41,376 nucleotides of DNA. Origin: Flavobacteriaceae bacterium. GTDB lineage: Bacteria > Bacteroidota > Bacteroidia > Flavobacteriales > Flavobacteriaceae. The stretch is taken from assembly GCA_030621915.1 (NCBI GenBank), contig JAUXGV010000004.1:1-41376 (forward strand), given 5' to 3'. This document shows positions 832 through 41,093 of the stretch, piece after piece. Each line of letters starts with the position of its first letter. The first letter of the stretch is position 1. Below the pieces are notes generated by a model. It worked only from the letters and a program-made list of their open reading frames with translations, did not search any database and was not told the origin of the DNA. The position numbers and the translations under genes are program-made.

Positions 832-885
832 ATACCTTGTAATACAAAGTCTTATTAAGGAACAAAGCAAAATAAATATATATAA

Positions 886-919
886 AAAACCTTCCCTTTG
901 GGAGGTATTAAGGAAAGGA
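886..919. repeat. Small hairpin repeat related to the 17.1-kb element (ccttccctttgggaggtattaagg)
   Basis: cttccc-ttt-gggagg near-palindrome just 5' of the kdgA ATG, similar in layout to cttccc-ctt-gggaag before the ATG at 17156. Confidence 0.55.
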
Positions 920-921
920 TT

Positions 922-2567: not shown

Positions 2568-2569
2568 TT

Positions 2570-3031: not shown

Positions 3032-3032
3032 T

Positions 3033-4331: not shown

Positions 4332-4348
4332 TATTATAATTGTATAAA

Positions 4349-5794: not shown

Positions 5795-5804
5795 GTAGAA
5801 CATC

Positions 5805-12776: not shown

Positions 12777-14606
12777 ATGTTAAATCGAATATATCTGTTA
12801 GTATTTCTTCTATTATCTATTTATCCATTCGAAACAAATGGACAAATAATTAGTGAAAAAGTCTACATTATTTATGCTGAAGAATTTGGAATTATCCCAA
12901 ATACCTTTGAAAATATTGCCATTCCTTTAAAAGAAGCCATTAAAGAAGTTAAAAAATACAATCATGTTAAACTTGTGTTTGAAAATGGACGTTATGACAT
13001 CTGGCCTGAACATTCAGAACAAAGAGAATATTTTATCAGCAATACATCTACGGAAAAGGAAGTGCCTTCAAAAATCAAAACCATTGGTTTACTTTTTGAA
13101 AATACCAATAATTTAATCATTGAAGGAAATGGTGCTTTGATCATACTTCATGGGAAGATGATCAATTTTGCTTTTGTGCAATGTGAGAATATCAAAATGC
13201 AAAACATTCAATTCGATTATGAACGCCCAACAATGTCTGAATTGACTTTTGAAAAGATCAGCAATAACAAAATTATTGCCAACATCAACCCTTTTTCCAC
13301 CTATTCCATCATTGACGGTAAATTGGTCTTTTATGGTGAAGGATGGACAATGAAGCGTTACCACGCCATCTTAATTGATTCCAAAAAATCTTCTTTTTAT
13401 TATACCAAGTTTGATCCTTTATTAATGGGCTTTGCCTCTGAAATTATTCCAAATAAAATCGAGTTCGTTGGAGATTTTTCTAAAACCAATTATAAAGTGG
13501 GGCAGACACTTTCTGTAAGAGATCCTTATCGAGATCAGGTAGGTGCCTTTATCGCTTATTCCAAAAATGTGGTACTGGAGAATGTAAAAATGCACTATAT
13601 GCATGGTATGGGAATCGTCAATCAGTTCAATGAAAATATAACTTTGGATAAGGTAATTGTTAAGCCAAGGGTGGAAACAAATAGAAAAATTGCCGCCTTT
13701 GCCGATTGCTTTCATTTTTCAGGTTGCAAAGGACAAATTACCATCAAAAATTGCGAGACTTATGGTGGACATGATGATCCTGTGAATGTTCATGGGACTC
13801 ATTTAAAAATCACAGAGAAAATTTCTAGCAACAAAATTAAACTTCGATTCATGCATGGACAGTCATATGGGTTCAAGGCCTTTTTCAAAGGAGACACCTT
13901 AGATTTTGTACATGGCAAAAGCCTGCAGGTTTATGGAAGTTCTCAAGTGAAAGAAGTAAAAAAATTAAACGAAAGAGAGCTCGAAATTACATTGAATTCT
14001 AATCTCCCAAAAGGATTTGAAATAGGCGATGTTATTGAAAATGTTTCCTGGACTCCTTCTGTTACCATACGTGATAATTATTTTGGGGGCACTAATACCA
14101 GAGGCGTTTTGATGACTACCCGTAAAAAAGTACTTATAGAAAACAATACTTTTTTCAGAACCGGGATGCATGCTATACTAATAGCAAACGATGCTTCAAA
14201 TTGGTATGAATCTGGCCCAGTAAGAGATGTGACAATTAGAGGCAACCGATTTGTAGATTGTGGTTACAATCAGACTCCAAACAGCTATATAATTAACATC
14301 TGGCCGGAAAATCATAAAACTGTTCCCGGCTATTATGTACATCAAAATATCATCATTGAAAACAATGTATTTGAAAGCTTTGACACACCAATTCTAAGAG
14401 TAAAGAGTACTGATGGATTGGTATTTAAAAACAATAAAATATTATATACAAATGCTTTTCCGGATATGAAAAGTGGTAATTCATCATTTTTTATTCAAGA
14501 ATGTAGAAATATTAAAATTGAACTTCAGAAAAAAGACAAGGATAATTTCGATAGTATTGAATGGGTGGGTATGAAGAAAAATCAAATTAAAGTGAAACTA
14601 AAATAA
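12777..14606 (+). CDS. Secreted parallel beta-helix glycosidase, GH110-like (alpha-1,3-galactosidase)
   Basis: Signal peptide; beta-helix repeats; FADCFHFSGCKGQITIKNCETYGGHDDPVNVHGTHL resembles the GH110 catalytic region. Confidence 0.8.
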   Translation: MLNRIYLLVFLLLSIYPFETNGQIISEKVYIIYAEEFGIIPNTFENIAIPLKEAIKEVKKYNHVKLVFENGRYDIWPEHSEQREYFISNTSTEKEVPSKIKTIGLLFENTNNLIIEGNGALIILHGKMINFAFVQCENIKMQNIQFDYERPTMSELTFEKISNNKIIANINPFSTYSIIDGKLVFYGEGWTMKRYHAILIDSKKSSFYYTKFDPLLMGFASEIIPNKIEFVGDFSKTNYKVGQTLSVRDPYRDQVGAFIAYSKNVVLENVKMHYMHGMGIVNQFNENITLDKVIVKPRVETNRKIAAFADCFHFSGCKGQITIKNCETYGGHDDPVNVHGTHLKITEKISSNKIKLRFMHGQSYGFKAFFKGDTLDFVHGKSLQVYGSSQVKEVKKLNERELEITLNSNLPKGFEIGDVIENVSWTPSVTIRDNYFGGTNTRGVLMTTRKKVLIENNTFFRTGMHAILIANDASNWYESGPVRDVTIRGNRFVDCGYNQTPNSYIINIWPENHKTVPGYYVHQNIIIENNVFESFDTPILRVKSTDGLVFKNNKILYTNAFPDMKSGNSSFFIQECRNIKIELQKKDKDNFDSIEWVGMKKNQIKVKLK

Positions 14607-22254: not shown

Positions 22255-22353
22255 TTCATTTGAAGGGCAAAAAAAGTATCATATTTGGCAACATCAATTG
22301 TTGTTGTTGATATCTGCAAGCTATATTTTTGTATTAAATTTAAATATAATCTA

Positions 22354-23688
22354 ATGCATGATATTCTAATTACGGATATTGAGATTAAAGATATTCGATT
22401 TCCAACAAGTAAATCCTTGGATGGATCTGATGCAATGAATCCTGACCCGGATTATTCTGCTGCCTACGTAATTTTAAAAACAAATCATCCTGATCATTTG
22501 GAAGGCCATGGCCTTACATTTACAATAGGCAGGGGAAATGAAATTTGCGTTGCCGCCATCAAATCTTTAATTCCTTTAATTCAAGGTAAAAATTTAAAAG
22601 ATTTTACAAAGGATATGGGTTCATTTTGGAAAATGATTACCGGTGACAGCCAATTGAGATGGCTAGGGCCAGAAAAAGGGGTCATTCATTTAGCGACCGG
22701 TGCCGTTGTAAATGCAGTTTGGGATTTATATGCTAAAGTAGAACAAAAGCCATTGTGGAAATTGCTGGCGGATATGACCCCCGAGGAATTGGTGAGCTGT
22801 ATAGATTTCACCTATATCACTGATGCAATAACTCCACAAGAGGCCCTTGAATTATTAAAAAATAAAGCTTCAACCAAGCAAAACAGAATTGATCATCTAA
22901 TGGAAAAAGGATATCCCGCCTATACTACATCAGCCGGATGGTTGGGTTATTCTGATGACAAAATGCGATTATTATGTAAGGAAGCCAAGGCAGAAGGTTT
23001 TAGGCATATGAAGATGAAAGTGGGATCGAATCTACAAGATGATATGCGAAGAGCCGCCATTATCCGTGAAGAAATTGGAGAAGACTTACAATTGATGATG
23101 GATGCCAACCAGAAATGGGACGTGGATGAAGCCATCACAAATATGGAATCCTTGGCTCAATTTAATCCCTGGTGGATTGAAGAGCCAACCAGTCCGGATG
23201 ACATATTAGGTCATGCGAAAATAGCTAAGGCTGTAGCCCCCATAAAAGTTGCCACAGGAGAACATTGCCAAAACAGGGTAATGTTCAAACAATTGATGCA
23301 GGCGGGTGCCATTGAAATTTGTCAAATTGATAGTTGTCGTGTTGGTGGAGTGAATGAGATTTTGGCAATCTTGTTGATGGCCGCCAAATTTAATATTCCT
23401 GTTTGTCCACATGCTGGAGGGGTGGGTCTATGTGAATACGTACAACATTTATCGATGATCGATTATATTGCAATAAGCGGTTCCTTAGAAAATAGAATTA
23501 TTGAATATGTTGATCACTTACATGAACATTTCTTAGACCCTGTTGTCATAGAAAATGGTGCCTATCTCCCTCCCAATATACCGGGATATAGTATCACCAT
23601 GAAAAGTGAATCTTTAAAGGATTATGAATTTCCTCATGGCAAAATTTGGAATGAGGAACTAAAAATAAAAAATAATGACACAATTTAG
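22354..23688 (+). CDS. L-fuconate dehydratase (enolase superfamily)
   Basis: DIRFPTSKSLDGSDAMNPDPDYSAAYVILKT resembles fuconate dehydratase N-termini; enolase-superfamily metal/catalytic segments MKMKVG, DANQKWDVDEA, EEPTSPDD, GEHCQNR. ATG at 22354 preferred over the TTG at 22285. Confidence 0.9.
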   Translation: MHDILITDIEIKDIRFPTSKSLDGSDAMNPDPDYSAAYVILKTNHPDHLEGHGLTFTIGRGNEICVAAIKSLIPLIQGKNLKDFTKDMGSFWKMITGDSQLRWLGPEKGVIHLATGAVVNAVWDLYAKVEQKPLWKLLADMTPEELVSCIDFTYITDAITPQEALELLKNKASTKQNRIDHLMEKGYPAYTTSAGWLGYSDDKMRLLCKEAKAEGFRHMKMKVGSNLQDDMRRAAIIREEIGEDLQLMMDANQKWDVDEAITNMESLAQFNPWWIEEPTSPDDILGHAKIAKAVAPIKVATGEHCQNRVMFKQLMQAGAIEICQIDSCRVGGVNEILAILLMAAKFNIPVCPHAGGVGLCEYVQHLSMIDYIAISGSLENRIIEYVDHLHEHFLDPVVIENGAYLPPNIPGYSITMKSESLKDYEFPHGKIWNEELKIKNNDTI

Positions 23689-24483: not shown

Positions 24484-25959
24484 ATGAAAAATTTGAAATT
24501 CATTTTTGGATTAATTTGTTTTATTTATTCTATAACCGCCATTTCTCAAACCAAATATGAAGCAACTTGGGAATCGTTAGATTCAAGACCAATTCCTGAT
24601 TGGTTTGGTGACGCTAAATTTGGAATTTTTATTCATTGGGGACCTTATTCGGTTCCTGCTTGGTCGCCAAAAGGAACTTATTCTGAATGGTATCAATATT
24701 GGCTTCAAAGTTCCAAATTATTTGGAAATGGCGAATTTAAAGGTGATGAAGTTACTCAATATCACAACAAAACTTATGGTGAAGATTTTGATTATTATAA
24801 ATTTGGCGAACTGTTTAAGGCCGATTTATTCGACCCCGATCAATGGGCTCAATTATTTGAAAAAGCCGGTGCTAAGTATATAGTCCTCACTTCAAAACAT
24901 CATGATGGATTTACCTTATGGCCCAATGAAGAAGCTAATGATAGAGGCTTTGCCTGGAACAGTATGGAAATTGGCCCCAAAAGAGATTTGGTAGGCGAAT
25001 TAACTACTGCAGTAAAAAAGACACCTGTTAAAATGGGCTTATATTATTCTTTATATGAATGGTATCACCCCTTATGGATCAATGATAAAGATCGATTTGT
25101 AGACGAACACTATTTACCTCAGGTAAAGGATCTTGTAACCAAGTATAGTCCCGATATTTTATGGGCTGATGGAGAATGGGAGATGGAAGCAGAAAAATGG
25201 AGATCAACAGAATTTCTATCCTGGTTATTCAATGAATCGAACGTAAAAAATTCAATTGTTGTTAACGATAGATGGGGAAAGGGAATCAGAAAAAATCACG
25301 GAGGTTATTTTACAACTGAGTATGAATCGGAAGCCCCAGAATTTGAAAAACCATGGGAAGAATGCAGGGGTATGGGATTTTCTTTTGGATACAACCAGAA
25401 TGAAGATGCTCAAGACTATAATTCGCCAAAAGCGTTAACCTTAATGTTGGTAAACATTGTAAGTACCGGTGGTAATTTATTGTTAGACATAGGCCCTGAT
25501 TCAAGAGGAAATATTCCAGTAATCATGCAGGAACGACTTTTACAATTGGGAGGCTGGCTAGAAACAAACGGTGAAGCAATTTACGGTACCAAACCATGGA
25601 ATAATTCATTTCAATGGTCGGAAGGAGAACGTAATTTTAAACCTAAACAACATTATCTGGGAGGTGATTTTATTTTGAAACAAACCATTGATCCAGAACC
25701 CGGATATGCGGTTAAAGAACTTTTCTTTACGCAAAACGATTCCAATTATTTTGCCATCAGTCCAAAATGGCCCACCCAATATTTATCCATTAAAAATTTT
25801 AAACCTGTTTCCGGTTCTACTGTTACTCTTTTAGCAACCGGTGAAATATTAAATTGGCAAATGAAAAACAAGAATATGATCATTGAAATGCCTCTTCTTG
25901 ATATCAATAAAATTTCGGATAAGGATCCCTATGCCTGGGCATTTAAAATCTCAAAATAA
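24484..25959 (+). CDS. GH29 alpha-L-fucosidase
   Basis: DWFGDAKFGIFIHWGPYSVPAW, LTSKHHDGFTLWP, ILWADGEWE (nucleophile region); signal peptide. Confidence 0.95.
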   Translation: MKNLKFIFGLICFIYSITAISQTKYEATWESLDSRPIPDWFGDAKFGIFIHWGPYSVPAWSPKGTYSEWYQYWLQSSKLFGNGEFKGDEVTQYHNKTYGEDFDYYKFGELFKADLFDPDQWAQLFEKAGAKYIVLTSKHHDGFTLWPNEEANDRGFAWNSMEIGPKRDLVGELTTAVKKTPVKMGLYYSLYEWYHPLWINDKDRFVDEHYLPQVKDLVTKYSPDILWADGEWEMEAEKWRSTEFLSWLFNESNVKNSIVVNDRWGKGIRKNHGGYFTTEYESEAPEFEKPWEECRGMGFSFGYNQNEDAQDYNSPKALTLMLVNIVSTGGNLLLDIGPDSRGNIPVIMQERLLQLGGWLETNGEAIYGTKPWNNSFQWSEGERNFKPKQHYLGGDFILKQTIDPEPGYAVKELFFTQNDSNYFAISPKWPTQYLSIKNFKPVSGSTVTLLATGEILNWQMKNKNMIIEMPLLDINKISDKDPYAWAFKISK

Positions 25960-26202: not shown

Positions 26203-28437
26203 ATGATCAAAAATATATTTCAAATCCTATTCATTATTCTTTTTACAATTTCATGCAAGGAGAAATCGGCTAAACTCATTCCTTTAACCAGTACAATTGA
26301 ACTTGGAGAACACGAATCAAAAGATTCAATAATACTTAAAGCCGCACATGTAATTCCTACGCCCAATCAATATGAAGCTTTAAAAAATGAATTTATCGCC
26401 TTCATCCACTTTGGTCCAAATACTTTTACTCGAATGGAATGGGGAAATGGTTTTGAAGATCCTAAAATTTTCAATCTTCAAAATTTAGATACAGACCAAT
26501 GGTGTGAAGCTATGAAAAGCGCAGGAATGAAAATGGTGATTATTACCGTAAAGCATCATGATGGCTTTGTACTTTGGCAAAGCAGATATACCAAGCATGG
26601 TATTATGTCTTCTCCTTTTAAAGAGGGAAAAGGAGATGTGTTAAAAGAGTTATCAGCGTCCTGTCAAAAATTTGGATTAAAATTAGGTGTTTACCTATCT
26701 CCCGCCGACTTATATCAAATTGAAAACCGGGAAGGGTTATATGGCAATTTAAGTGAATATTCTGACCGAATCATCCCTCGTCCCATCGAAGGAAGGCCTT
26801 TTGAGAACAAAACTACTTTTACCTTTAAAGTAGATGATTATAATGAATATTTCCTAAACCAATTATTTGAATTATTAACTGAATATGGCCCTATTGATGA
26901 AGTTTGGTTTGATGGTGCCCATCCCAAAAGAAAGGGAGGGCAAAAATATAATTACATTGCCTGGAAGGAGCTTATCTCAACCCTTGCTCCAAAGGCTGTG
27001 GTTTTTGGAAAACAAGATATTCGCTGGTGCGGAAACGAATCCGGCGGCACCAGAGAAACCGAATGGAATATTATTCCTTACCAGGATGATCCAAATCTGA
27101 TGAATAGTTTTGCCGATATTACTGGTGAAGATATAGGAAGCAGAGATAAAATATACGAGGCTAAATTTTTACATTATCAACAAGCGGAAACAAATACATC
27201 CATCAGAGAAGGCTGGTTTTATCGAGATGAAGAAAAACAAAAAGTAAGAAGCGCCGATGATGTATTTGATATCTATGAAAGATCTGTTGGTGGAAATTCA
27301 ACTTTTTTATTAAATATCCCGCCAAACAGAGAAGGTAACTTATCACCTGAAGATGTTAAAGTATTGAAGGAAGTTGGCAAGCGAATCGAAGAGACCTATC
27401 ATCATAATATGTTTGAAAATGCCAAGGGTCCGAAAAGGGTTTTGGATAATGATATCATCAGTTATGTATTAGTCGATGATACCAATCATGAAATAATAAT
27501 AGAGACTCCACAAGTAATTACCACAAATCGAATCGTTATTCAAGAGTCTATTACAACACATGGTGAAAGAATAGAAAAACATGCCCTCGACGCCTGGATA
27601 GATAATCAATGGAAAGAAATTGCAACTGCAAGCAATGTTGGATATAAAAGAATTCTTCGATTTCCGGATATTACTTCTGATAAATTTAGAATTCGAGTTT
27701 TAGAATCTCGCTTAAATCCTGCTATCTCTAATATCAGTGCTCATTATTATAATACCAGACCTCCTCAATTGAGTGTTTCAAGAAATCTAGATGGCCTTAT
27801 AACAATTGCACCAAAAAAAGATGAATTTAGTTGGAAGCCTCATGGTGAAGATATCATTGGAAATATGAATGGGAGGTTCGAAATCAGATATACCATCGAT
27901 GGAACAGATCCGACTGATAATTCCAAATTGTATGTGGAACCTGTTTTGATCAATTCAAATAAAATTAAGGCGAGGGCTTTTAATAAAGATCAAATGGGTA
28001 GTGTGGCTTCCGTTGAATTTGGCATCGTAAAAAAAGGGTGGACAGTTTTAAAAACTGATAGTCAAAGTAGGGATCATAAAGGAGAACATTCAATGGATGA
28101 AGACCCGTCAACCTATTGGCAATCTGGAGAGAAAGGCAAGGCCCATTTTATATCTATAGATTTAGGCAAAGAACACACACTTAAAAGTTTTGCTTATACA
28201 CCTCAAGTAAGGAATTCAGAAGGTATGATTGAAAAAGGGGTCATCAAAACAAGTAAAAATGGGAAAAATTGGAAAAAACTAGAAGAATTTGAATTTGGTA
28301 ATTTGATCAACGATCCTGTAGTGAGACGACATTATTTTAAGGAATCCATCAATACTCAATATATTCGAATTGAATCTAAAGTTATTGCAGGCAATAAAAA
28401 GACAGCTGCGATCGCCGAAATAGATTTTTTTGAATAA
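26203..28437 (+). CDS. GH29 alpha-L-fucosidase with C-terminal FN3-like and F5/8 type C (CBM32-like) regions, lipoprotein
   Basis: Lipobox TISC; NEFIAFIHFGPNTFTRMEWGNG, VKHHDGFVLWQS, IDEVWFDGAHP; C-terminal region FEIRYTIDGTDPT then ... DEDPSTYWQSGEKGKAHFISIDLGKEHTLKSFAYTPQ ... YIRIES. Confidence 0.93.
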   Translation: MIKNIFQILFIILFTISCKEKSAKLIPLTSTIELGEHESKDSIILKAAHVIPTPNQYEALKNEFIAFIHFGPNTFTRMEWGNGFEDPKIFNLQNLDTDQWCEAMKSAGMKMVIITVKHHDGFVLWQSRYTKHGIMSSPFKEGKGDVLKELSASCQKFGLKLGVYLSPADLYQIENREGLYGNLSEYSDRIIPRPIEGRPFENKTTFTFKVDDYNEYFLNQLFELLTEYGPIDEVWFDGAHPKRKGGQKYNYIAWKELISTLAPKAVVFGKQDIRWCGNESGGTRETEWNIIPYQDDPNLMNSFADITGEDIGSRDKIYEAKFLHYQQAETNTSIREGWFYRDEEKQKVRSADDVFDIYERSVGGNSTFLLNIPPNREGNLSPEDVKVLKEVGKRIEETYHHNMFENAKGPKRVLDNDIISYVLVDDTNHEIIIETPQVITTNRIVIQESITTHGERIEKHALDAWIDNQWKEIATASNVGYKRILRFPDITSDKFRIRVLESRLNPAISNISAHYYNTRPPQLSVSRNLDGLITIAPKKDEFSWKPHGEDIIGNMNGRFEIRYTIDGTDPTDNSKLYVEPVLINSNKIKARAFNKDQMGSVASVEFGIVKKGWTVLKTDSQSRDHKGEHSMDEDPSTYWQSGEKGKAHFISIDLGKEHTLKSFAYTPQVRNSEGMIEKGVIKTSKNGKNWKKLEEFEFGNLINDPVVRRHYFKESINTQYIRIESKVIAGNKKTAAIAEIDFFE

Positions 28438-28512: not shown

Positions 28513-30111
28513 GTGAAAACACATTACCTTAAAATAATTTACTCGACTCTATTATGTGTCTTATTTTTAACTAGTTACAATAATAAACCTGATGCATCAA
28601 TAGCAAAGGATGTATCAAAAATGCCAAATATTATTTATGTATTGGCTGATGATTTAGGTTATGGTGATATCAATACATTCAATCCTAATGGAAAAATAAA
28701 AACACCAAATATAGATGCCTTGGCAAGTGCAGGGATGAAATTTACAGATGCTCATACTTCTTCTGCGGTTTGTACCCCCACGCGGTACGGGATTTTAACG
28801 GGAAGGTATAATTGGCGAAGTAATTTAAAATCCGGTGTTCTTACAGGTAAATCGAATGCACTGATACCCACAAGTAGAAAGACAGTGGCCCGTTTACTGC
28901 AAGATAAAAACTACAATACCGCTTTTATTGGTAAATGGCACTTAGGGTGGGATTGGGCTCAAAAGGATGACGAAGAAAACCTTGGTCAAGGATGGAACCC
29001 TAAGGATTTTAGTAGTATCGACTTTTCAAAACCTGTGAAAAATTCACCCAATGATTTGGGTTTTAGCTATGCTTACGGACATTCAGGCTCCTTAGATATG
29101 GCGCCCTATGTTTATGTAGAAAATAGAATGCCCACACAAGTTCCAGATACAGTCACAGTTGATAAAGGGGCATATACCTGGTGGAGAGAAGGTCCTACTT
29201 CTAAAGATTTTATTCATGATGACGTAACTCCTAATTTTTTCAGGCGTTCTATTAAATATATTAAAGAAAAATCCAAAGAAGACAAACCCTTCTATTTATA
29301 TCTTGCATTGCCTTCGCCTCATACACCCATTTTACCCACAGAAGAATGGAAAGGAAAAAGCGGTTTAAATCCTTATGGTGATTTTGTGACTATGATTGAC
29401 GCTTATATGGGTCAATTGACCGAAGCCGTAAAAAATGCAGGTATTGAAGAAAATACAATGGTTATTTTTACCAGTGATAATGGTTGTTCGCCTCAAGCTA
29501 ATTTTGAAGTTTTGGCCGAAAAAGGACATGATCCGAGTGGTGTTTTTAGAGGTCACAAAGCCGATATCTTTGAAGGCGGCCATCGGGTTCCATTTATAGT
29601 AAAATGGCCTGCCAAAATTAAAGCCAATTCTGTTTCAAACAAAACGATTTGTACCACAGATTTTTTTGCCACTTGTGCTGATATCATCAAGACAGAATTA
29701 AATGCAAATGAAGGAGAAGATAGTTTTTCCATGTTATCTTTGTTTAAAAATCCCAATACAACTGATTATTTAAGAGAAGCAACCGTACATCATTCTATTA
29801 ATGGGAGTTTTGCCATTCGTAAAGACAATTGGAAATTAATATTTTGTCCTGGATCAGGAGGATGGAGTGATCCAAAACCCAAATCAGAATTAATTGCTGA
29901 ATTACCTAAATTTCAATTATACAATTTATCAAGTGATCCGGAAGAGCAAATTAACCTTTACAAGAAGAACCCTGAAATTGTTAAAGAACTTAAATCATTA
30001 ATGGAAAAAACTATTAAAAATGGGAGAAGTACTGATGGGAAAATGGTCAAAAATGATCCTGGATTTAAAAATGTTTGGCAGCAATTAAATGTATTCGATA
30101 TAAAACAATAA
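28513..30111 (+). CDS. Secreted sulfatase, S1 family
   Basis: MPNIIYVLADDLGYGDINTF; FGly motif CTPTRYGILTGRYNWRS; GKWHLGWDW. GTG start. Confidence 0.95.
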   Translation: MKTHYLKIIYSTLLCVLFLTSYNNKPDASIAKDVSKMPNIIYVLADDLGYGDINTFNPNGKIKTPNIDALASAGMKFTDAHTSSAVCTPTRYGILTGRYNWRSNLKSGVLTGKSNALIPTSRKTVARLLQDKNYNTAFIGKWHLGWDWAQKDDEENLGQGWNPKDFSSIDFSKPVKNSPNDLGFSYAYGHSGSLDMAPYVYVENRMPTQVPDTVTVDKGAYTWWREGPTSKDFIHDDVTPNFFRRSIKYIKEKSKEDKPFYLYLALPSPHTPILPTEEWKGKSGLNPYGDFVTMIDAYMGQLTEAVKNAGIEENTMVIFTSDNGCSPQANFEVLAEKGHDPSGVFRGHKADIFEGGHRVPFIVKWPAKIKANSVSNKTICTTDFFATCADIIKTELNANEGEDSFSMLSLFKNPNTTDYLREATVHHSINGSFAIRKDNWKLIFCPGSGGWSDPKPKSELIAELPKFQLYNLSSDPEEQINLYKKNPEIVKELKSLMEKTIKNGRSTDGKMVKNDPGFKNVWQQLNVFDIKQ

Positions 30112-30136: not shown

Positions 30137-30991
30137 ATGAAATTAATAAGATTTGGAGCCGAAGGACAAGAAAAACCTGGAGTTCAATTAGACAATGGAT
30201 CAAGAATAGATATATCTGCATTTGGACAGGATTTTGATGAAAATTTCTTTGGAAATGATGGTATTAAAAAATTAGGCAAATGGCTTAAAAGTAATCAACC
30301 GAATTGCCCCTTAGTTGACGAAAATATTCGACTAGGGGCTCCAATGACGCGTCCGTCAAAAATTGTATGCGTTGGTTTGAATTATGCACAACATGCAGCT
30401 GAATCGGGAATGGCGGTTCCTGAACACCCAGTATTATTCTTTAAATCTACCACAGCTATTGTAGGTCCTTTTGATGATATCATAATTCCAAAGGGAAGTA
30501 CAAAAACAGATTGGGAAGTGGAATTATCAATAGTTATTGGTAAAAAGGCTTCTTATGTCAATGAGGCTGATGCATTTGATCACATTGCAGGTTATGTATT
30601 GCATAATGATGTTAGTGAAAGAGCTTTTCAATTGGAATTATCCGGTCAATGGGTGAAGGGTAAAAGTTGTGATACTTTTGCTCCTATTGGTCCATTTATA
30701 GCCACTACTGATGAAATTAAAAATCCTAATAATTTAAACTTATGGTTGAAATTAAATGGTGAAATGATGCAAAATAGTAGCACCTCAGATTTTATATTTA
30801 ATGTACAACATGTTGTAAGTCATATCAGCCAGTTTATGACCTTATTACCCGGTGATATAATTTCTACCGGAACTCCTTTTGGCGTTGGTTTGGGATTAAC
30901 ACCACCTTTGTATCTTAAAGCAGGTGATGTGGTAGAGTTAGGAATTGAAGGTCTGGGTACTTCCAAACAACATGTAAAAGCATACGAATAA
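30137..30991 (+). CDS. Fumarylacetoacetate hydrolase family protein, probable 2,4-diketo-3-deoxy-L-fuconate hydrolase
   Basis: KIVCVGLNYAQHAAE, PVLFFKSTTAIVGP, DWEVELSIVIG, SERAFQ, LLPGDIISTGTPFGVG; context of fuconate dehydratase and SDR. Confidence 0.88.
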   Translation: MKLIRFGAEGQEKPGVQLDNGSRIDISAFGQDFDENFFGNDGIKKLGKWLKSNQPNCPLVDENIRLGAPMTRPSKIVCVGLNYAQHAAESGMAVPEHPVLFFKSTTAIVGPFDDIIIPKGSTKTDWEVELSIVIGKKASYVNEADAFDHIAGYVLHNDVSERAFQLELSGQWVKGKSCDTFAPIGPFIATTDEIKNPNNLNLWLKLNGEMMQNSSTSDFIFNVQHVVSHISQFMTLLPGDIISTGTPFGVGLGLTPPLYLKAGDVVELGIEGLGTSKQHVKAYE

Positions 30992-30998
30992 ATTAAAC

Positions 30999-33158
30999 AT
31001 GCAAAATGAAGATTTCAAATCAAGTATAATTCTCTTTTTTTTAATTTCTTTTTTTTCAATTTCCTGTTTTTCACAAGACTTAAATTGGAAAGAAATTCAA
31101 AATGGTATTTGGAAAGCTAGCGTTGGGGTTCCTGAATCGATAAGCTTGTTAAAAGCTGCCGATATTCAACCCAAAGTTGATGCTTTACAAAATCTTCCAA
31201 GTACTTCTTTTCCATTTTCAAAGGATAAAATTAGTGCAGAAGTTATTGATGGAAAGGTATATCTAAGATTTCCTCTTGAAAGAGAAGAACAGATTTATGG
31301 CTTGGGGTTAAATTTTAAAACCGTTCAGCAACGAGGAAGGATTATGCAATTGCATGTAGATCATTATGGTGGTAGAGATAATGGACGAACCCATGCGCCG
31401 GTTCCCTTTTATGTTTCTTCCAAAGGTTATGGAGTTTTGATTGATGCGGCTAGGTATATTACAGTTTATGCCGGAACTGCCGTCCGTGTAGATACTGATG
31501 ACCCTCCTGTTTTAAGAGATAGAAATACTGACAAACAATGGAAGGCGCAACCTTATTCTGATGCTGTGGAAATTTTGATTCCTGCCCAAGGGACAAACAT
31601 TTATGTTTATGGAGGATCCTCTCCCATGGAAGCTGTTCAGAGATACAATCTTTACAATGGTGGAGGTTATATTCCGCCCAAATGGGGATTGGGATTTACA
31701 CAACGGGTTCCAACACTTTATAGCGACGCTGATATTTTAAAAGAAGCCAGGGAGTTTGAGGATCATAATTTCCCTTTAGATTTTATAGGAGTTGAACCAG
31801 GATGGCAAAGTATGGCATATCCATGCACTTTTGAATGGGATAAAACCCGTTTTCCAGACCCCGAAAAGTTCAATAGTGATTTGAAGGCTCTGGGCGTTCG
31901 CTCAAATTTATGGTTGAATCCTTATGTTTCACCTATTGGCTCTTTATATCCAAAACTGAAAGACTTAACAGGATCACATACGGTTTGGAATGGTATCGTA
32001 CCCGATTTTACCATCAAAGAAACACGTGATATTTTCAAGAAACACTTTGTAGAAAACCATCTAAATTTTGGTGTAAGTGGTTATAAAATTGATGAAGTAG
32101 ATGGCTTTGATTCCTGGGTATGGCCAGATATTGCCACATTCCCATCAGGATATAGTGGTGAACAAATGAGGCAGGTTTATGGCTTGCTGGTTCAGGATAT
32201 GACAGGAAAATGGTTCAAGGAATTGAACCAGCGGACTTACGGTTTGGTAAGAGCTTCCAATGCAGGTGCCAGTGCTTTGCCATATGTAATTTATAATGAT
32301 TATTACAGCCATAGAGATTTTATCACAGCCTTGATCAACAGTAGTTTTATTGGGGTGTTATGGACACCAGAAGTTAGAGCCTCCAAAAGTGCTGAAGAAT
32401 GGGTACGCCGAATGCAATCGGTTTGTTTTTCGCCTATGGCCATGTTGAATGCCTGGGCTGATGGAACAAAACCCTGGTCTTTCCCAGAGGTAGAAACTGC
32501 GGTACGAGAAGTTGCTAATTTAAGAATGCAACTATTGCCTTATATTTATACCACTTTTTCACAATATCATTTTGAAGGGCTGCCTCCCTTTAGAGCCATG
32601 AATTTGGTTGAAGGATTTTTGCATCAACAAAAATCATCAGATGGAAAATTAGAATCTACAGATAACCCCTATGAAATAGCTGTTAAAAGTGAAATAAAAG
32701 ACCAGTATATGATGGGCGATGAACTATTGGTAGCGCCTATGTTTGCAGGTGAAACGGAAAGAAAAGTAATTTTACCTCAAGGAAAATGGTACGACTTTTA
32801 CAATGGAAAATATGTTGGGGAAAATGAAATTATTAGGGTATCTCCGGGAATAGAAAAAATCCCTTTATTTGTGAAAGACGGAGGAATCATTCCGATGAGA
32901 CCTGTAGAAAGACAGGCTCCAAAAGTTGGAGAAAAAGTAGAACTGATTATCAGACATTATGGAACAAGCAATGGGGATTTTGTTCTTTATGATGATGATG
33001 GAGTGAGTTTTGATTTTGAAAAAGGCGACTATTCAACAGTCAAAATATTGGTGAAAAAAGACAAAAAAGGGCAATTAAAAGGTGTTATTTCAAAACCTGA
33101 AAAAGGGAAACCCTATGGTTATCATAAAAAGGTGACCTGGGAGTTTATGACCAATTAA
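30999..33158 (+). CDS. GH31-family alpha-glycosidase (non-canonical active-site motifs, possibly alpha-galactosidase-like)
   Basis: EEQIYGLGLNFKTVQQRG, GGGYIPPKWGLGFTQR, GYKIDEVDGFD in the nucleophile region, RASNAGASALPYVIYNDYYSHRDF in the acid/base region; signal peptide. Confidence 0.88.
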   Translation: MQNEDFKSSIILFFLISFFSISCFSQDLNWKEIQNGIWKASVGVPESISLLKAADIQPKVDALQNLPSTSFPFSKDKISAEVIDGKVYLRFPLEREEQIYGLGLNFKTVQQRGRIMQLHVDHYGGRDNGRTHAPVPFYVSSKGYGVLIDAARYITVYAGTAVRVDTDDPPVLRDRNTDKQWKAQPYSDAVEILIPAQGTNIYVYGGSSPMEAVQRYNLYNGGGYIPPKWGLGFTQRVPTLYSDADILKEAREFEDHNFPLDFIGVEPGWQSMAYPCTFEWDKTRFPDPEKFNSDLKALGVRSNLWLNPYVSPIGSLYPKLKDLTGSHTVWNGIVPDFTIKETRDIFKKHFVENHLNFGVSGYKIDEVDGFDSWVWPDIATFPSGYSGEQMRQVYGLLVQDMTGKWFKELNQRTYGLVRASNAGASALPYVIYNDYYSHRDFITALINSSFIGVLWTPEVRASKSAEEWVRRMQSVCFSPMAMLNAWADGTKPWSFPEVETAVREVANLRMQLLPYIYTTFSQYHFEGLPPFRAMNLVEGFLHQQKSSDGKLESTDNPYEIAVKSEIKDQYMMGDELLVAPMFAGETERKVILPQGKWYDFYNGKYVGENEIIRVSPGIEKIPLFVKDGGIIPMRPVERQAPKVGEKVELIIRHYGTSNGDFVLYDDDGVSFDFEKGDYSTVKILVKKDKKGQLKGVISKPEKGKPYGYHKKVTWEFMTN

Positions 33159-33196: not shown

Positions 33197-35629
33197 ATGT
33201 TAAAATTGGACAAAATAATTTATGCCATAAGCTTAATACTAATTCTTAGTTGTAGTAAGGACAATTTAAATTCATTTTCCACCAAGACCTTCAAAATTGA
33301 ACTTAATAATCGTGGAGAAATTAATAGTCTTGAAGATTTTAAACTACAAAAAGAATATAATTATCAGGAAGGTACGACCTCTCTCTTAGCCATTCAAATA
33401 AACGGTAAATTGGAATATCCCGGAGAAATGAAATTTCGAGAGCAAGATAGTTTGATTATTTTTATCTATCCTGAAAACGCCATTACAGCTCATATTAAAA
33501 TTTCGAATAAAAATGACTATTTAACCTTTGAATTGATCGAATTATCTGACGTTTCAAAAGTAGAACTCGTTACTTGGGGTCCGATAAAGACTACTATTAA
33601 AGAAACTATAGGGGAAACTGTTGGTGTTGTAAGAAATAAACAATTTTCAATGGGTATTCAAGCTTTAAACCCAAGAACTTTAGGTGGTTTTCCTACTCCA
33701 GATGATGATGCACCTTCTTACAATATTTTTGGAACAACCAGTTTGGTGGATGTTTCAGATTCTTTAAATATTTTATACAGAGGACATACAGCCTACCCCA
33801 GAGATTATGGGAGTTCAATCCAAGCGTATACTAGAAATAGGTCTCAAGAAAGAGTCATTTCTAATTTAAATCATGATAAATATGTGGCTCCATCTTTTAA
33901 AGATGACGGTGTAATTGGTTCAAAAATAGCTTTATTCGGATGTAAGCCAGAAGAAGTTTTAAATACTATTGAAAAAATTGAGTTAAACGAAGGCTTACCA
34001 CATCCCATGCTAAACGGTATATGGGCAAAAAGAGCCAAAGAGGCTACATCTGCATATCTAATTCAAGGATTTAATACCGATAATATTGATGATGCTATTG
34101 AACTAACAAAACGTGCAGGATTAAAATATGTTTATCAAGGAGGGCCTTTTGAAAATTGGGGGCAATTTGATCTAAAAGAAAAACAATTCCCAAATAATTG
34201 GGAAAGCATGAAAGAATGTGTTGATAAAGCAGAAAAACAAGGAATTAAAGTTGGGTTACATACACTCTCAAATTTTATAACTACAAATGACTCATACGTA
34301 ACCCCGATTCCAGATAAAAGATTGGCAAAAGTTGGGGCAAGTAAATTAACAAAAGAAATTAATGCTACCGATAAGAATATAGAAATTCAAGATCCAACAT
34401 ATTTCAATCAAATGAAAAATAACAGTCTTCATGCCGTGGTTATTGGAGACGAAATAATCCGTTATGAAAGCGTATCAGAATCTGCGCCGTGGACATTATT
34501 GAATTGTGAAAGAGGTGCTTTTAAAACCATTTCTAAAAGTCATGCTAAAGAAATTAAAATCGAAAAGTTAATAGATCATGCTTATAAAACTTTTTTAAGC
34601 AATCCTGAATTAACCGTGGAAATGGCTACAACATTAGCAAACTTATACAATGAAACGGGATTAAAACAAATTTCTTTCGATGGGCTTGAAGGAAACTTGT
34701 CCACTGGATTGGGAGCTTACGGAGAATTATTTATGACCAAAACGTGGTACGACCAGTTAAAGCCAGCCATAAAAAATGACTTTTTAATGGATGCCAGTAA
34801 ACCTGGGCATTTTTTCTGGCATATGTTTACGCGTATGAATTGGGGAGAACCTTGGTATGCCGGCTTTAGAGAAAGTCAGACTTCATACCGCATACTAAAT
34901 CAAGATTATTTTAGACGGAATTATATCCCTTCTATGCTTGGTTGGTTTAGTATGAAAGACAATACTAGTTTAGAAGATATAGAATGGATGTTGGCAAGAA
35001 GTGCGGCTTTTGATGCCGGTTATGCTTTGGTTACTTCTAATACACTTGTCGAAAAAAATGGATTTGGAAATGAAATTTTGGAAAAAATAAAGCAATGGGA
35101 ACTTGCAAGGATGGGTAAAGCCTTTACATCCGAACAAAAGAAAAGAATGGAAAACATCAAAGCCGAATTTACTTTGGAAACTATCTCCGAAGGAAAATGG
35201 AATTTAATACCCTATCATGTACAACGATTTGAGCATAAACTCATCATTCGTCAACCTGGAGAACCCGTATGGTCTACCTTTTACTTCACTAATACCTATG
35301 AAAAACAGCCATTGCAGTTTATTTTAACAACAACTAATAAAAGTTCAGCTTCCAATTTATTTATTGAAATTGATGATTTTAAGAAAATTGATTTAGATAT
35401 TACTCTTGAACCAGGCGAGAATCTAAAATATGAGGGCGGGAAGGAAGTTGTTTTATACGATAAATCATGGAATCGGTTGGAATCTATACGAATAGATCCT
35501 GACAAATTCAATCTAACAAAAGGAAGCCACAAAATCAAAATTGATTGTACATTTGATGACACCGAAAATTCCAGTTTAAAATTAGAATTAAAGACAATTG
35601 GTTTGCCTGAATTGATTTCCTTAAATTAA
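33197..35629 (+). CDS. Secreted lipoprotein, putative (beta/alpha)8 glycoside hydrolase of unassigned family
   Basis: Lipobox LILSC; barrel-like segments (AGLKYVYQGGPFENWGQF, GIKVGLHTLSNFI, ETGLKQISFDGLEG), embedded 'IGDEIIRYESV...WTLLNCERGAFKT' subdomain, operon context. Confidence 0.6.
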   Translation: MLKLDKIIYAISLILILSCSKDNLNSFSTKTFKIELNNRGEINSLEDFKLQKEYNYQEGTTSLLAIQINGKLEYPGEMKFREQDSLIIFIYPENAITAHIKISNKNDYLTFELIELSDVSKVELVTWGPIKTTIKETIGETVGVVRNKQFSMGIQALNPRTLGGFPTPDDDAPSYNIFGTTSLVDVSDSLNILYRGHTAYPRDYGSSIQAYTRNRSQERVISNLNHDKYVAPSFKDDGVIGSKIALFGCKPEEVLNTIEKIELNEGLPHPMLNGIWAKRAKEATSAYLIQGFNTDNIDDAIELTKRAGLKYVYQGGPFENWGQFDLKEKQFPNNWESMKECVDKAEKQGIKVGLHTLSNFITTNDSYVTPIPDKRLAKVGASKLTKEINATDKNIEIQDPTYFNQMKNNSLHAVVIGDEIIRYESVSESAPWTLLNCERGAFKTISKSHAKEIKIEKLIDHAYKTFLSNPELTVEMATTLANLYNETGLKQISFDGLEGNLSTGLGAYGELFMTKTWYDQLKPAIKNDFLMDASKPGHFFWHMFTRMNWGEPWYAGFRESQTSYRILNQDYFRRNYIPSMLGWFSMKDNTSLEDIEWMLARSAAFDAGYALVTSNTLVEKNGFGNEILEKIKQWELARMGKAFTSEQKKRMENIKAEFTLETISEGKWNLIPYHVQRFEHKLIIRQPGEPVWSTFYFTNTYEKQPLQFILTTTNKSSASNLFIEIDDFKKIDLDITLEPGENLKYEGGKEVVLYDKSWNRLESIRIDPDKFNLTKGSHKIKIDCTFDDTENSSLKLELKTIGLPELISLN

Positions 35630-35634
35630 AAGCC

Positions 35635-38436
35635 ATGTCAAATAAAACGATTCAAAGCAAAACAAAAGTATTTCTGATTTTACTATTTGGGATTAGTCTA
35701 ACATCAATTGCACAACAATATGTTAACCTTTCAGAAATGGAAGTTTCGTTAGGTCAACAAACTTATAGCGCACCTGCTGTTAATAAATCAGCTTCTGGAG
35801 AAAAATTGTCTATCGCAGGAACTAAATTTTTAAATGGAGTTGGAGTTTATTCCAAGTCCGTGATAAAAATTAAGAATCACGGGGGCCACACATTTACAGC
35901 AACTATTGGCGTGAATGATTCGAAAATTGACTATAATTCTGAGGCGATTAAAACAATTCCTTTAACAGATGGCAAACGTATGTTTTATCATGTTACCGAA
36001 ACTAAAAAACAGTTTTTAGGAGTTGAAGGTGCTGATGGAAAAATTGATGCCGGAAGCGTTGTTTTTAAAGTTCTACACAAAGGCAAAGAAGTTTTTAATA
36101 GTGGAATCATGAAACAAGGTGATCCTGCCAAAGAAATAAATCTAAAAGTAAAAGGGGGCGTTTTAGAATTGGTTGTAGAAGATGCGGGTGATGGTGTAAG
36201 TGGTGATAATGCCATTTGGGCCAATGCTAAATTAATATATTTTGAAGTGTCACCGGTTATTGTTGCAGGGAACTTTAAAGGAGAAATTCCTGAACAATCA
36301 AGTGAAGTTAAAAATAAGTTGACAAAACTAATCAATGAATTACCAGAAATACAATTGCCTTTGGAGCAACCGGATTATGATTGGTTGGTAAACAATGACA
36401 AGGCAGTGACAAGTGTTTATAAAACAAATACTGGGAAAGATATTGTAATAAGTAACGGCTTAATTGCACGTGTTTTTCGTTTGACTCCTAACCTGGCTAC
36501 TATTGACTATATCAATCAAATGACGGGTGAAAGTTTATTGCGCAGTGTATCTAATGAAGGAACTTTAACGATTGATGGAAAAGAGTATCCCATTGGTGGA
36601 TTAAGCAAACAACCGGAATATGGGTACACACTTATGAAATGGGTGGATGAACTTAAGGCGGCTGAAAATTCATTTATGATCGAAAACTTTGAAATAAAAG
36701 AAGTGTCTGAAAGAATGGATTGGAAACGAGTTCGCTGGTCTTCAAATGATAAAGCACCTACTGGTAAAGAATTGATATTTACGCTTTCAAAAGATGGAAT
36801 TGTTGTAAAAGTTCATTTTGTATTGTATGATGGGATTCCAACATTGAGTAAATGGATAGAAATTTATAACGAATCTGATATAATTGTTCAGTTGAATAAG
36901 TTTAAAATTGAGCAGTTAGCGATGGTTGAAGGTGAGAATTTGGTAAAAACTCCAAGTCATTGGACCAAGCCAAATATTCATTTCCAAAGTGATTATGCCT
37001 TTGGCGGTATGCAGCAAAAACCATCTGACCAAACTACCTACTGGGAAAAAGACCCTCGATACACCTCTCAAACAAACTATCCGTTAAACTTGCCTTGCTT
37101 GTTGGAAATTAAGCTACCTATTGGACCAGATACTGGAATTCCTGTAGGAAAATCCTTAACAACTTTTAGAGTTTGGGAAACACCTATGGATAGTAAAGAA
37201 GAAGAACGCGTTGGATTGTTTAAAAGAAAATTATATCGTACCATTTCTCCTTGGACTACAGAAAATCCGATGTTTTTACATTTAACCTCTACAGATCCAG
37301 AGGTAATTAAAAGAGCCGTAGATCAATGTGCCGAAACTGGCTATGAAATGATCATCTTGAGTTTTGGTAGTGGTTTGAACATGGAAAAAGAAGATGAGGA
37401 TTATTATAACAGATTTAGAGAATATCGGGAGTATGCAAATTCAAAAGGTATCGAATTAGGTGGGTATTCTTTGTTGTCAAGTCGTTGGATTAGTGACGAG
37501 GTAGATGTGATCAATCCAAAAACAGGCAAAAGAGGCGGGATGATTTTTGGGTCTTCTCCCTGTTTAAGTAGTGAATGGGGAACTAACTATTTTAGAAAGG
37601 TTAAAACATTCTACGAAAAAACAGGGATGCAAGTTTTTGAAAATGACGGTTCATATCCAGGAAATGTTTGTGCTTCAACAACGCATGCCCACCATGATGG
37701 TTTGGAAGATTCTCAATGGAAGCAATTCGCTCAAATTCAAGGCTTGTATAAATGGATGCGATCTGAAGGAATTTATATGAATGTACCTGATTTTTATTTA
37801 ATGTCTGGGACCAACAAAACTGGAATTGGCTATAGAGAAGTGAACTGGTCGTTGCCCAGAGATCGCCAGCTAATGTTGGGTCGCCAAAACATTTATGATG
37901 GATTGTGGGACAGAATTCCGAGCATGAACTGGACATTTGTGCCCTTAACACAATATCATGGCGGCGGAGCAGCAGCAACTATGGAACCTTTAAATGATCA
38001 TTTGGTGGACTATGAAAACCAAATGATGCAAAATTATGGATCGGGAACTCAGGCTTGTTATAGAGGCCCAAGATTATATGATACGGAGGAAACAAAACAA
38101 TTGGTTATTAAAGTAGTTGACTGGTATAAAAAATATCGCAATATCTTAAACAGTGATATTGTTCACTTAAGACGCCCTTCTGGAAAAGATTGGGATGGGT
38201 TTTTACATGTAAATCCTGAATTAAAAGAAAAAGGCCTTGCTATGATTTTTAATCCCACAGATCAGGAAATGGAAAGAACCATCGAATTACCAATGTATTA
38301 TACCGGAATTTCCGATGAAACTTCCATAAGGATCAAAGAAGGAAATATAAAAAAATATAAATTATCACGAGATTATAAAATAAAAATAGATCTTAGCATC
38401 CCCGCCAATTCTTATACTTGGCTGGTTATTGAATAA
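35635..38436 (+). CDS. Secreted protein with N-terminal NPCBM-like domain and GH-D-clan-like (alpha-galactosidase-like) catalytic region
   Basis: N-terminal YVNLSEMEVSLGQQTYSAPAVNKSASGEKLSIAGTKFLNGVGVYSKSVI (NPCBM-like); beta-supersandwich-like middle; barrel motif GMQVFENDGSYPGN; GYREVNWSLPRDRQ. Confidence 0.65.
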   Translation: MSNKTIQSKTKVFLILLFGISLTSIAQQYVNLSEMEVSLGQQTYSAPAVNKSASGEKLSIAGTKFLNGVGVYSKSVIKIKNHGGHTFTATIGVNDSKIDYNSEAIKTIPLTDGKRMFYHVTETKKQFLGVEGADGKIDAGSVVFKVLHKGKEVFNSGIMKQGDPAKEINLKVKGGVLELVVEDAGDGVSGDNAIWANAKLIYFEVSPVIVAGNFKGEIPEQSSEVKNKLTKLINELPEIQLPLEQPDYDWLVNNDKAVTSVYKTNTGKDIVISNGLIARVFRLTPNLATIDYINQMTGESLLRSVSNEGTLTIDGKEYPIGGLSKQPEYGYTLMKWVDELKAAENSFMIENFEIKEVSERMDWKRVRWSSNDKAPTGKELIFTLSKDGIVVKVHFVLYDGIPTLSKWIEIYNESDIIVQLNKFKIEQLAMVEGENLVKTPSHWTKPNIHFQSDYAFGGMQQKPSDQTTYWEKDPRYTSQTNYPLNLPCLLEIKLPIGPDTGIPVGKSLTTFRVWETPMDSKEEERVGLFKRKLYRTISPWTTENPMFLHLTSTDPEVIKRAVDQCAETGYEMIILSFGSGLNMEKEDEDYYNRFREYREYANSKGIELGGYSLLSSRWISDEVDVINPKTGKRGGMIFGSSPCLSSEWGTNYFRKVKTFYEKTGMQVFENDGSYPGNVCASTTHAHHDGLEDSQWKQFAQIQGLYKWMRSEGIYMNVPDFYLMSGTNKTGIGYREVNWSLPRDRQLMLGRQNIYDGLWDRIPSMNWTFVPLTQYHGGGAAATMEPLNDHLVDYENQMMQNYGSGTQACYRGPRLYDTEETKQLVIKVVDWYKKYRNILNSDIVHLRRPSGKDWDGFLHVNPELKEKGLAMIFNPTDQEMERTIELPMYYTGISDETSIRIKEGNIKKYKLSRDYKIKIDLSIPANSYTWLVIE

Positions 38437-38450
38437 TACAATCCTTGATT

Positions 38451-39902
38451 ATGAAAAATATTCTTTATATTCCGCTGTTTCTGGCACTATGTCTTCTTTC
38501 CTGCATTGAAAAAAAAGAATCAACCCCGGAAATCAAGAAAAAACCCAACATCATTTTCCTGTTTACAGACGATCAGAGTTTTAAGGCTTTGAATGCCTTA
38601 GGAAATCCGGAAATCAAAACACCTACTATGGATAAATTGGTAGAGCAAGGTGTTACGCTAACGCATGCATATAATATGGGTGGATGGAATGGAGCAATTT
38701 GTATGGCTTCCAGAGCGATGGTAATTAGTGGTCGATCTATATGGAATGCTCAGTCAATTTCAGGAAATTATTCAAAAGATGAAGACTTGGATAAAACCTG
38801 GCCTAAATTAATGCAAACCGCAGGCTACGACACTTATATGACCGGAAAATGGCATGTACAAGCCAAACCAAAAAAAATATTCAATCATGTTGGACATGTA
38901 TTAAGAGGTATGCCATTTGATACACCTGAAGGATACAATCGTCCACTTAATGAAAACGATACACTTTGGAAACCTTGGAAAAAAGAATTTGGCGGTTATT
39001 GGAAGGGTGGTAAACATTGGAGTGAATTGGTTAAAGATGATGCGGTTTCTTTTATTGATAGCGCCTCTTTAAAGGATGATCCTTTTTTTATGTATATCGC
39101 CTTTAATGCACCTCATGACCCGAGACAGGCTCCTAAAAAATATGTGGATATGTATCCCTTGGAAAATATCAGCATCCCTGAAAGTTTTGTCCCTGAATAT
39201 CCCTATAATGAGACCATGGGAGCAGGCAGAAAATTGAGGGATGAGAGGCTGGCTCCCTTTCCGAGAACTGAATATTCAATAAAAGTCAACCGACAAGAAT
39301 ACTATGCTATTACTACACATTTAGACGATCAAATCAAAGATATATTAGATGCCTTGGAAAAAAAGGGACTTAAAGAAAATACCTATATCTTTTTCTCTTC
39401 TGATCATGGTTTGTCCGTTGGAGAGCATGGACTCATGGGAAAACAAAGTATGTATGATCACAGTTTGAGAATGCCCTTAATGGTAGTAGGACCAGATATC
39501 CCAAAAGGAAAAAAAATCGATACAGATGTTTATATGCAAGATATTATGGCTACTTCTCTGGAATTGGCAGGCGTTGAAAAACCGGAATATGTTGAGTTCA
39601 ATAGTTTTTTAAATATCATAAAAGGTAATGAAAATCAAGGCTTTTATGAATCTGTCTATGGTACTTATGAAAAAGGCGCTCAGAGAATGATTAGAAAAGA
39701 TGGTTATAAACTTATTTTATACCCAAAATCGACTAAAATCCTGCTTTATGATTTAAAAAATGATCCCTTAGAATTAGATGATCTCGCTTCCAATCCTGAA
39801 AATACTGGCAAAATTAAATCCTTATTCAGGGATCTGATCCAATTGCAAAAAGACATGAAGGATCCACTTGATTTGGAAACCATTTATAAAAACTCCCTTT
39901 AG
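38451..39902 (+). CDS. Secreted sulfatase, S1 family, with CMASR (CxAxR) maturation motif, lipoprotein
   Basis: KPNIIFLFTDDQSFKALNALGNPEIKTPTMD; ICMASRAMVISGRS; GKWHVQAK; SSDHGLSVGEHGLMGKQSMYDHS. ATG at 38451 preferred over the TTG at 38445. Confidence 0.93.
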   Translation: MKNILYIPLFLALCLLSCIEKKESTPEIKKKPNIIFLFTDDQSFKALNALGNPEIKTPTMDKLVEQGVTLTHAYNMGGWNGAICMASRAMVISGRSIWNAQSISGNYSKDEDLDKTWPKLMQTAGYDTYMTGKWHVQAKPKKIFNHVGHVLRGMPFDTPEGYNRPLNENDTLWKPWKKEFGGYWKGGKHWSELVKDDAVSFIDSASLKDDPFFMYIAFNAPHDPRQAPKKYVDMYPLENISIPESFVPEYPYNETMGAGRKLRDERLAPFPRTEYSIKVNRQEYYAITTHLDDQIKDILDALEKKGLKENTYIFFSSDHGLSVGEHGLMGKQSMYDHSLRMPLMVVGPDIPKGKKIDTDVYMQDIMATSLELAGVEKPEYVEFNSFLNIIKGNENQGFYESVYGTYEKGAQRMIRKDGYKLILYPKSTKILLYDLKNDPLELDDLASNPENTGKIKSLFRDLIQLQKDMKDPLDLETIYKNSL

Positions 39903-39908: not shown

Positions 39909-41093
39909 ATGATTAAAAAGTACTTTACATGGTTAAAACAGTATGCGCATATATTAGTTTTAAGTCTTGTTTTTTTATTCAGTTGTAATAGTTCAGACGA
40001 TGAATTGATGAATGATGATCCGCCAATTGACCCACCTCTTATTGACATTTATGAAGAAGATCATTCCTTTAAAATTGTTGGGTATTTGCCAGAATACAGG
40101 TTTTCATTAATTGATCAAATGAATTTCGATAAAGTAACTTATGTAAATTTGGCATTTGGTAATATAAACGCCTCAGGTAATCTAGTTGTTGGTAATCATA
40201 TCGATATTCTTCCTATTGTACAACAAATCAAATCCGCCAATACTAAAGTGATGCTTTCCATAGCAGGAGGTGGTAACACGGGTAATCATTGGGAAAATTT
40301 TCTTTCCAATATTCATCGCAAAAAAACCATACAAAAAATGGTAGATTTTGTTGTTCTCAATCAACTGGATGGTATTGACGTAGATATTGAAGGGGCATTA
40401 ATTTCATCACTTGGTGTAAATTATAATCTTTTTGTTCAGGAATTAAAAAAACATTTGCACGCCAAGGGCAAAGCCATCACGGCAGCGCTTACTGCCATAA
40501 ATCTCAATAACATCATCACTGATAAAACCTTGCAAAGTCTGGATTTTATCAATATTATGGCCTATGACCTAACAGGTCCCTGGCAGCCTAATAATCCAGG
40601 ACCTCATTCACCATTTTCAATGGCCGATGATGCCTTAAGTTTTTGGAATAATACCAAAGGAATCCCTCAGGAAAAATTGGTTTTAGGAGTGCCATTTTAT
40701 GGACGAGATTTTAATCCTGCTGATTTAAAAGCATGGACTTATAATTCTATTCTTGAATTGGATCCGGAAAACGCGTATAAAGATCAGGTAGAACAGATTT
40801 ATTATAATGGAATTCCAACCATCGTTGATAAAACTAAATTAGCATTACAACGATCTAACGGTATTATGATTTGGGAAATGGGACAAGATGCTTTTAATGA
40901 CCTATCATTGCTTTCTACTATAGATCAGGTAGTGAATGCAACTGGCTGTGAACCAGATGAAATTCAAACTTTTTATAAAGATTTTGACGGTGATGGAAAG
41001 GGAAATTATCTACATCCCATGCAAGCATGTGAACCTCCTTTCGGCTATATTGACAATAGAGAAGATGAGGATGATGGTGATGCTTTAATTTAA
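39909..41093 (+). CDS. GH18 family glycoside hydrolase, predicted surface lipoprotein
   Basis: Lipobox LFSC followed by NSSDDE; KIVGYLPEYR; KVMLSIAGGG; catalytic LDGIDVDIE (DxxDxDxE); FINIMAYD; LVLGVPFYGR; acidic DFDGDGKGNY tail. Confidence 0.93.
   Translation: MIKKYFTWLKQYAHILVLSLVFLFSCNSSDDELMNDDPPIDPPLIDIYEEDHSFKIVGYLPEYRFSLIDQMNFDKVTYVNLAFGNINASGNLVVGNHIDILPIVQQIKSANTKVMLSIAGGGNTGNHWENFLSNIHRKKTIQKMVDFVVLNQLDGIDVDIEGALISSLGVNYNLFVQELKKHLHAKGKAITAALTAINLNNIITDKTLQSLDFINIMAYDLTGPWQPNNPGPHSPFSMADDALSFWNNTKGIPQEKLVLGVPFYGRDFNPADLKAWTYNSILELDPENAYKDQVEQIYYNGIPTIVDKTKLALQRSNGIMIWEMGQDAFNDLSLLSTIDQVVNATGCEPDEIQTFYKDFDGDGKGNYLHPMQACEPPFGYIDNREDEDDGDALI

Follow-up and report, generated by a model that had tools for sequence, protein, structure and literature searches.

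Genes A and B lie next to each other in a 41,376-nt stretch of DNA (the window, i.e. the whole stretch that was analysed), which stems from the 2.93 Mb, 77% complete genome of a marine-type bacterium.

33197-35629, + strand: gene A, 810-aa lipoprotein, putative alpha-glycosidase (reading frame, relatives, structural model, fold matches to GH101/GH36)
35635-38436, + strand: gene B, 933-aa secreted protein with an NPCBM domain and a GH36-like part, putative alpha-glycosidase

Both reading frames are open and on the same strand, with 5 bases between the stop codon of A and the start codon of B. Almost all of their relatives run the full length without stop codons inside, and A and B are real genes. 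A carries the lipobox ILSC; B starts with a signal peptide that is followed by the NPCBM domain. The pair is preceded by a GH31 gene (30999-33158) and followed by a sulfatase gene (38445-39902) and a GH18 gene. The motifs LKYVYQGGPFENWGQF, IKVGLHTLSNF and LKQISFDGLEG are present in the translation of A, FENDGSYPGN and GYREVNWSLPRDRQ in that of B. Coordinates, motifs and flanks were confirmed as given in the first-pass annotation, which had described two adjacent reading frames 5 bp apart between a GH31 and a sulfatase.

The same annotation had found no family for either protein, and at the sequence level this holds against Pfam, NCBIfam and the PDB. The sole Pfam match of B above the cut-off is PF08305 (E 7.3e-27), by which its supposedly NPCBM-like N-terminus is a true NPCBM domain. 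The catalytic parts of A and B gave no Pfam match above the cut-off, A showing no more than barrel similarity below the threshold (AP_endonuc_2, E 3e-4). Moreover, NCBIfam yielded no match above the cut-off for A or B, phmmer against the PDB returned no full-length relative of either, and the A profile had no match among PDB sequences up to E 10. PF02065 (Melibiase) matched neither A nor B at E up to 1, nor anything else in the window's genome. PF16499 (Melibiase_2), PF12905 (Glyco_hydro_101), PF11308 (Glyco_hydro_129), PF01055 (GH31) and PF10566 (GH97) were likewise without match in A or B. PF12905 was not found above the cut-off among 149 genomes of the phylum, and hhalign to the single clear GH129 protein found was negative. 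As Pfam, NCBIfam and the PDB hold no characterised relative of A or B, no activity can be transferred by homology. Two candidates for A were rejected: a weak phmmer match at E 0.035 to 5mqm_A (deposited under glycoside hydrolase family 2), which was gone with the profile, and matches to HblD at chance level (E 0.085-0.17).

The structure of A was predicted with AlphaFold2 from an alignment of 63 sequences; GH29-type proteins, which single-linkage clustering had pulled into the A cluster, were left out. The model is confident (mean pLDDT 92.2) and consists of the following predicted parts.

33269-33991, + strand: N-terminal beta-sandwich, residues 25-265 (secondary structure of the model)
34004-35161, + strand: (beta/alpha) barrel, predicted catalytic domain, residues 270-655 (model, fold matches)
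34328-34573, + strand: inserted beta domain, residues 378-459, after barrel strand 3 (Rcc01698_C and phrog matches)
35165-35620, + strand: C-terminal beta-sandwich, residues 657-808 (model)

The best fold match in the PDB is GH101 (3ecq, E 1.2e-15, TM 0.41), followed by GH36 (3mi6, E 7e-15), further GH36 alpha-galactosidases, a galactosaminidase and then GH31. With identities of 8-10% and low TM-scores (0.3-0.4), these matches of a predicted structure speak for a superfamily, not for membership in a family. At this level the model lends good support to a barrel of GH101 type and to a place of A within the alpha-galactosidase superfamily (GH27/GH36/GH31-related). The barrel that had been guessed from sequence motifs is thus seen in the model, with GH101/GH36 as its nearest folds.

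The insert of A resembles beta domains of phage distal-tail and gene-transfer-agent tail proteins, matching Rcc01698_C in 6 of 16 relatives as well as phrog_358, phrog_1101 and phrog_11439. It is kept across the family and contains an invariant residue, E419.

Three regions are distinguished in B.

35980-36234, + strand: NPCBM domain, best-scoring stretch, residues 116-200 (PF08305; a second stretch also matches)
36379-37179, + strand: putative GH36-type N-terminal supersandwich region, residues 249-515 (PF16875 in relatives; part matches 2xn0 by profile)
37237-38169, + strand: putative barrel region, residues 535-845 (hhalign to GH27)

PF16875 is weakly found in 11 of 17 relatives of B (best E 1.5e-5), the window's own B being without match, and the B profile matches the GH36 alpha-galactosidase 2xn0 (E 2e-5). 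In hhalign the barrel region reached a probability of 84-87% with GH27, and less than 3% with each of the GH29, sulfatase, GH20, GH31, GH36 and GH97 sets. The model of B, derived from seven relatives, is poor (pLDDT 55). Hence its best fold matches, which are GH36, carry little weight alone; the sequence profiles (PF16875, 2xn0, GH27) agree with them. Together with the weak model, the profiles point to B as a member of the same superfamily as A and as clan GH-D-like, the layout the first-pass annotation had proposed.

Related folds in adjacent genes might be explained by an old tandem duplication, A and B being copies of one another with the same job. The barrel profiles are indeed collinear (FDG versus NDG and NW versus NW), and the A-B profile score of 29 compares with about 18 +- 3.7 for shuffles, roughly 1 in 100. 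This score is marginal, however, A aligns equally well with GH27 (31.6) and GH36 (28.6), and many genomes possess B but not A. We therefore make no claim of A-B homology by profile and consider a duplication improbable.

Candidate catalytic residues were sought among the invariant positions of the barrels.

34679-34681, + strand: D495 of A (FDGLEG), end of barrel strand beta4 (strand 491-495), proposed nucleophile, invariant in 63/63 sequences
34847-34849, + strand: E551 of A (NWGEPW), proposed acid/base, invariant in 63/63
37645-37647, + strand: D671 of B (ENDG), proposed nucleophile, invariant in 34/34
37837-37839, + strand: E735 of B (GYREVNW), proposed acid/base, invariant in 34/34

The aspartates of FDGLEG and FENDG, earlier named as plausible candidates, are thus invariant throughout both alignments; D719 of B is so too (34/34). 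In enzymes of clan GH-D the nucleophilic Asp terminates strand beta4 (PMC1249566), a position that fits D495 and D671. When B was aligned by force with a GH36 protein, D671 came to stand opposite its LKMD. We propose D495 and D671 as catalytic nucleophiles. The acid/base of clan GH-D sits at the end of beta6. At the end of this strand A shows no conserved acidic residue in the 63-sequence alignment, which makes the choice of E551 a guess. The invariant residue in the beta6 stretch of B is Glu735, not the Asp expected for a GH36 acid/base. Judged by conservation, E735 and, as a guess, E551 are the likely acid/base partners.

It was also considered that one or both proteins merely bind glycans or serve as scaffold. 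The NPCBM domain of B would be in keeping with such a role, as would the lipid anchor and the inserted beta domain of A, but the barrel carboxylates are invariant and the barrel loops strongly conserved, and we regard a non-catalytic function as very improbable.

Both proteins were compared with the known systems. With GH36 (2xn0, 3mi6, 4fnr) they share the sandwich-barrel-sandwich order, the weak PF16875 matches among B relatives and the fold matches of A and B. They differ from it by the lack of PF02065, by identities of only 7-13% and by Glu instead of Asp as proposed acid/base of B. GH101 (3ecq, 5a55) and GH129 resemble A in the barrel with Asp nucleophile and Glu acid/base, GH101 being its top fold match, but A has no sequence match to them and lacks the numerous extra domains of GH101. 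Moreover, the proposed nucleophile and acid/base of A are spaced by 56 residues, compared to 32 in a GH101-derived design (PMC10949244). GH27 was the sole characterised-family set tried that aligned with weight to the barrel of B, whereas B is without PF16499 and carries an insertion ahead of strand 4 as well as large additional domains. The GH31 enzyme PsGal31A has its like in the same operon and belongs to the same superfamily, but neither A nor B has a sequence match to GH31.

Alternatively, A and B could belong, as divergent sequences, to established CAZy families (B to GH36/GH27, A in the vicinity of GH101) or to a recent one outside the searched libraries, in which case neither would be unassigned. 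The similarity of B to GH36/GH27 is real though faint, and GH101 leads the fold matches of A. Against this stand the missing matches of both proteins to PF02065, PF16499, PF12905, PF11308 and PF10566, the absence of PF02065 from the whole genome and the empty PDB search with the A profile. We consider such a membership possible but rather unlikely.

Relatives of A occur in 6 of 200 genomes of the same family, in 13 of 397 genomes of the phylum and at no fewer than 578 places (a lower bound, i.e. at least 578) in GTDB contigs. These are mostly Bacteroidota, with further members in Balneolota, Calditrichota, Verrucomicrobiota and Planctomycetota and more distant relatives in Embleya. B has relatives in 17 of the 200 same-family genomes, many of them without A, and also in records of Parabacteroides and Phocaeicola from the gut, one copy being named only 'NPCBM/NEW2 domain-containing protein'. 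Viral contigs contained no relatives of A or B. A relative of B in gut Parabacteroides distasonis (L202, 14989-17805 in NZ_OY725768.1) adjoins DUF1080, GH172 and GH140; the record is labelled plasmid and carries phage-tail-like genes as well.

Four of the 200 same-family genomes possess both genes (Fisher p = 5e-4). In three of these A and B are direct neighbours; in the remaining one they share a contig, separated by 20 kb. Among the GTDB loci, A is directly followed by B with gaps of 2-20 bases in L042, L057, L060, L065 and L115, and B is found near A in L055, L062 and L087. B is the most frequent same-strand downstream neighbour family of A; A without B is the commoner state. In the tree of A the A-B loci fall into at least three separate supported lineages, so that the arrangement is either old or was assembled repeatedly. 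The pairing of the two genes is well supported, and their linkage goes far beyond chance.

Three loci (L055, L059, L062) hold two or three A paralogues each, 28-38% identical to A of the window, indicating local diversification of the A family. A third uncharacterised family of about 690-700 aa was seen beside A-B or A (L065 15332-17422, L115 15304-17394, L060 2888-4963). The one member tested had no Pfam match; weak similarity by profile was seen with GH36/GH27 (about 50%) and with the B sandwich (54-83%).

The genes surrounding A and B in the window are as follows.

12777-14606, + strand: GH110-type alpha-1,3-galactosidase (9i4f, E 3e-92)
22285-23688, + strand: L-fuconate dehydratase (1yey, E 1e-176)
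24484-25959, + strand: GH29 alpha-L-fucosidase (PF01120, E 4e-121)
26203-28437, + strand: second GH29 protein, with F5/8 domains (PF01120, E 4e-39)
28513-30111, + strand: sulfatase
30137-30991, + strand: FAA-hydrolase family protein, deoxy-sugar oxidative pathway
30999-33158, + strand: GH31 alpha-galactosidase, PsGal31A type (4xpo over residues 22-718, E 6.5e-303)
38445-39902, + strand: S1-type sulfatase directly downstream of B (PF00884, E 2e-47)
39909-41093, + strand: GH18 protein (PF00704, E 3e-40)

Three sulfatases in all lie near A-B. The operon continues into the GH18 gene, and a GH92 gene is located further upstream, as is GH110; these three had not been named in the first-pass annotation. 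The GH31 protein is collinear over 697 residues with PsGal31A, an alpha-galactosidase captured with fucose in its +1 subsite (PMC9491548). From GH31, GH110, two GH29, three sulfatases and L-fuconate dehydratase we infer that the substrate is sulfated and contains both fucose and alpha-galactose.

Positions 1-7421 harbour a uronate catabolic operon (KDG kinase, KDPG aldolase, TRAP transporter, UxaB/UxaA-like), which suggests that uronic acid is part of the diet of the same region. A SusC/SusD pair is not found among the reading frames of the window; elsewhere, A follows SusD in eight loci. A search of 21 other genomes of the same genus gave no counterpart of the operon GH31 at E 1e-150, hence the operon looks accessory. 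A scan for promoters and terminators gave counts at or below those of shuffles.

In other loci A is accompanied by GH95, GH20, GH92 and L-fucose dehydrogenase, and L057 shows the consecutive order GH109-A-B. Across loci, alpha-galacto-configured and fucosylated glycans thus recur, not one polymer. Since the A family is also found in soil and gut bacteria, mostly without B, fucan alone is unlikely to be the substrate.

In one or both proteins the fold may also serve another sugar, i.e. cleavage of alpha-L-fucosyl, alpha-L-galactosyl or alpha-GalNAc residues, or endo action in sulfated fucan. Fucose catabolic genes and GH29 are nearby, GH101 as top fold match of A is endo-acting, and GH109 adjoins A-B in L057. 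On the other hand, the same region contains GH31 of alpha-galactosidase type and GH110, and precedent in the superfamily is mostly alpha-galacto or alpha-gluco. Such a specificity is conceivable though rather unlikely.

Taken together, A and B probably represent two alpha-glycosidase families, unassigned in the searched libraries (Pfam, NCBIfam, PDB), which would act on an alpha-galactosylated, sulfated, fucose-containing glycan. The first-pass interpretation is partly supported: fold type, invariant aspartates and gene linkage agree with it, and activity, joint action and substrate are inferred. Both would be secreted, probably retaining alpha-glycosidases of the alpha-galactosidase superfamily, each built from a (beta/alpha) barrel between an N-terminal and a C-terminal beta-sandwich, extended by the carbohydrate-binding NPCBM domain in B and the small inserted beta domain in A. 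The invariant Asp ending barrel strand 4 (D495, D671) would act as nucleophile and the invariant Glu (E551, E735) as acid/base. The target may be a polysaccharide or a glycoprotein glycan, unmasked first by the neighbouring sulfatases. A and B would then work sequentially or on alternative linkages of this one glycan, alongside the GH31/GH110 alpha-galactosidases and the GH29 fucosidases. More tentatively, the two may found new GH families and form a conserved two-enzyme unit that frees sulfated glycans containing fucose from alpha-galactosyl branches or related ones.

The sound finding is that of widely distributed, putative glycosidase families within a known superfamily, a good target for discovery rather than a surprise. 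The sulfated, fucose-containing polysaccharides of algae are hard to degrade and store carbon. According to a recent study (PMC12786026), many of the genes in fucoidan PULs have yet to be classified. With its many places in GTDB, no Pfam model, a confidently predicted glycosidase fold and several loci in which it directly follows SusD, the A family is a clear target.
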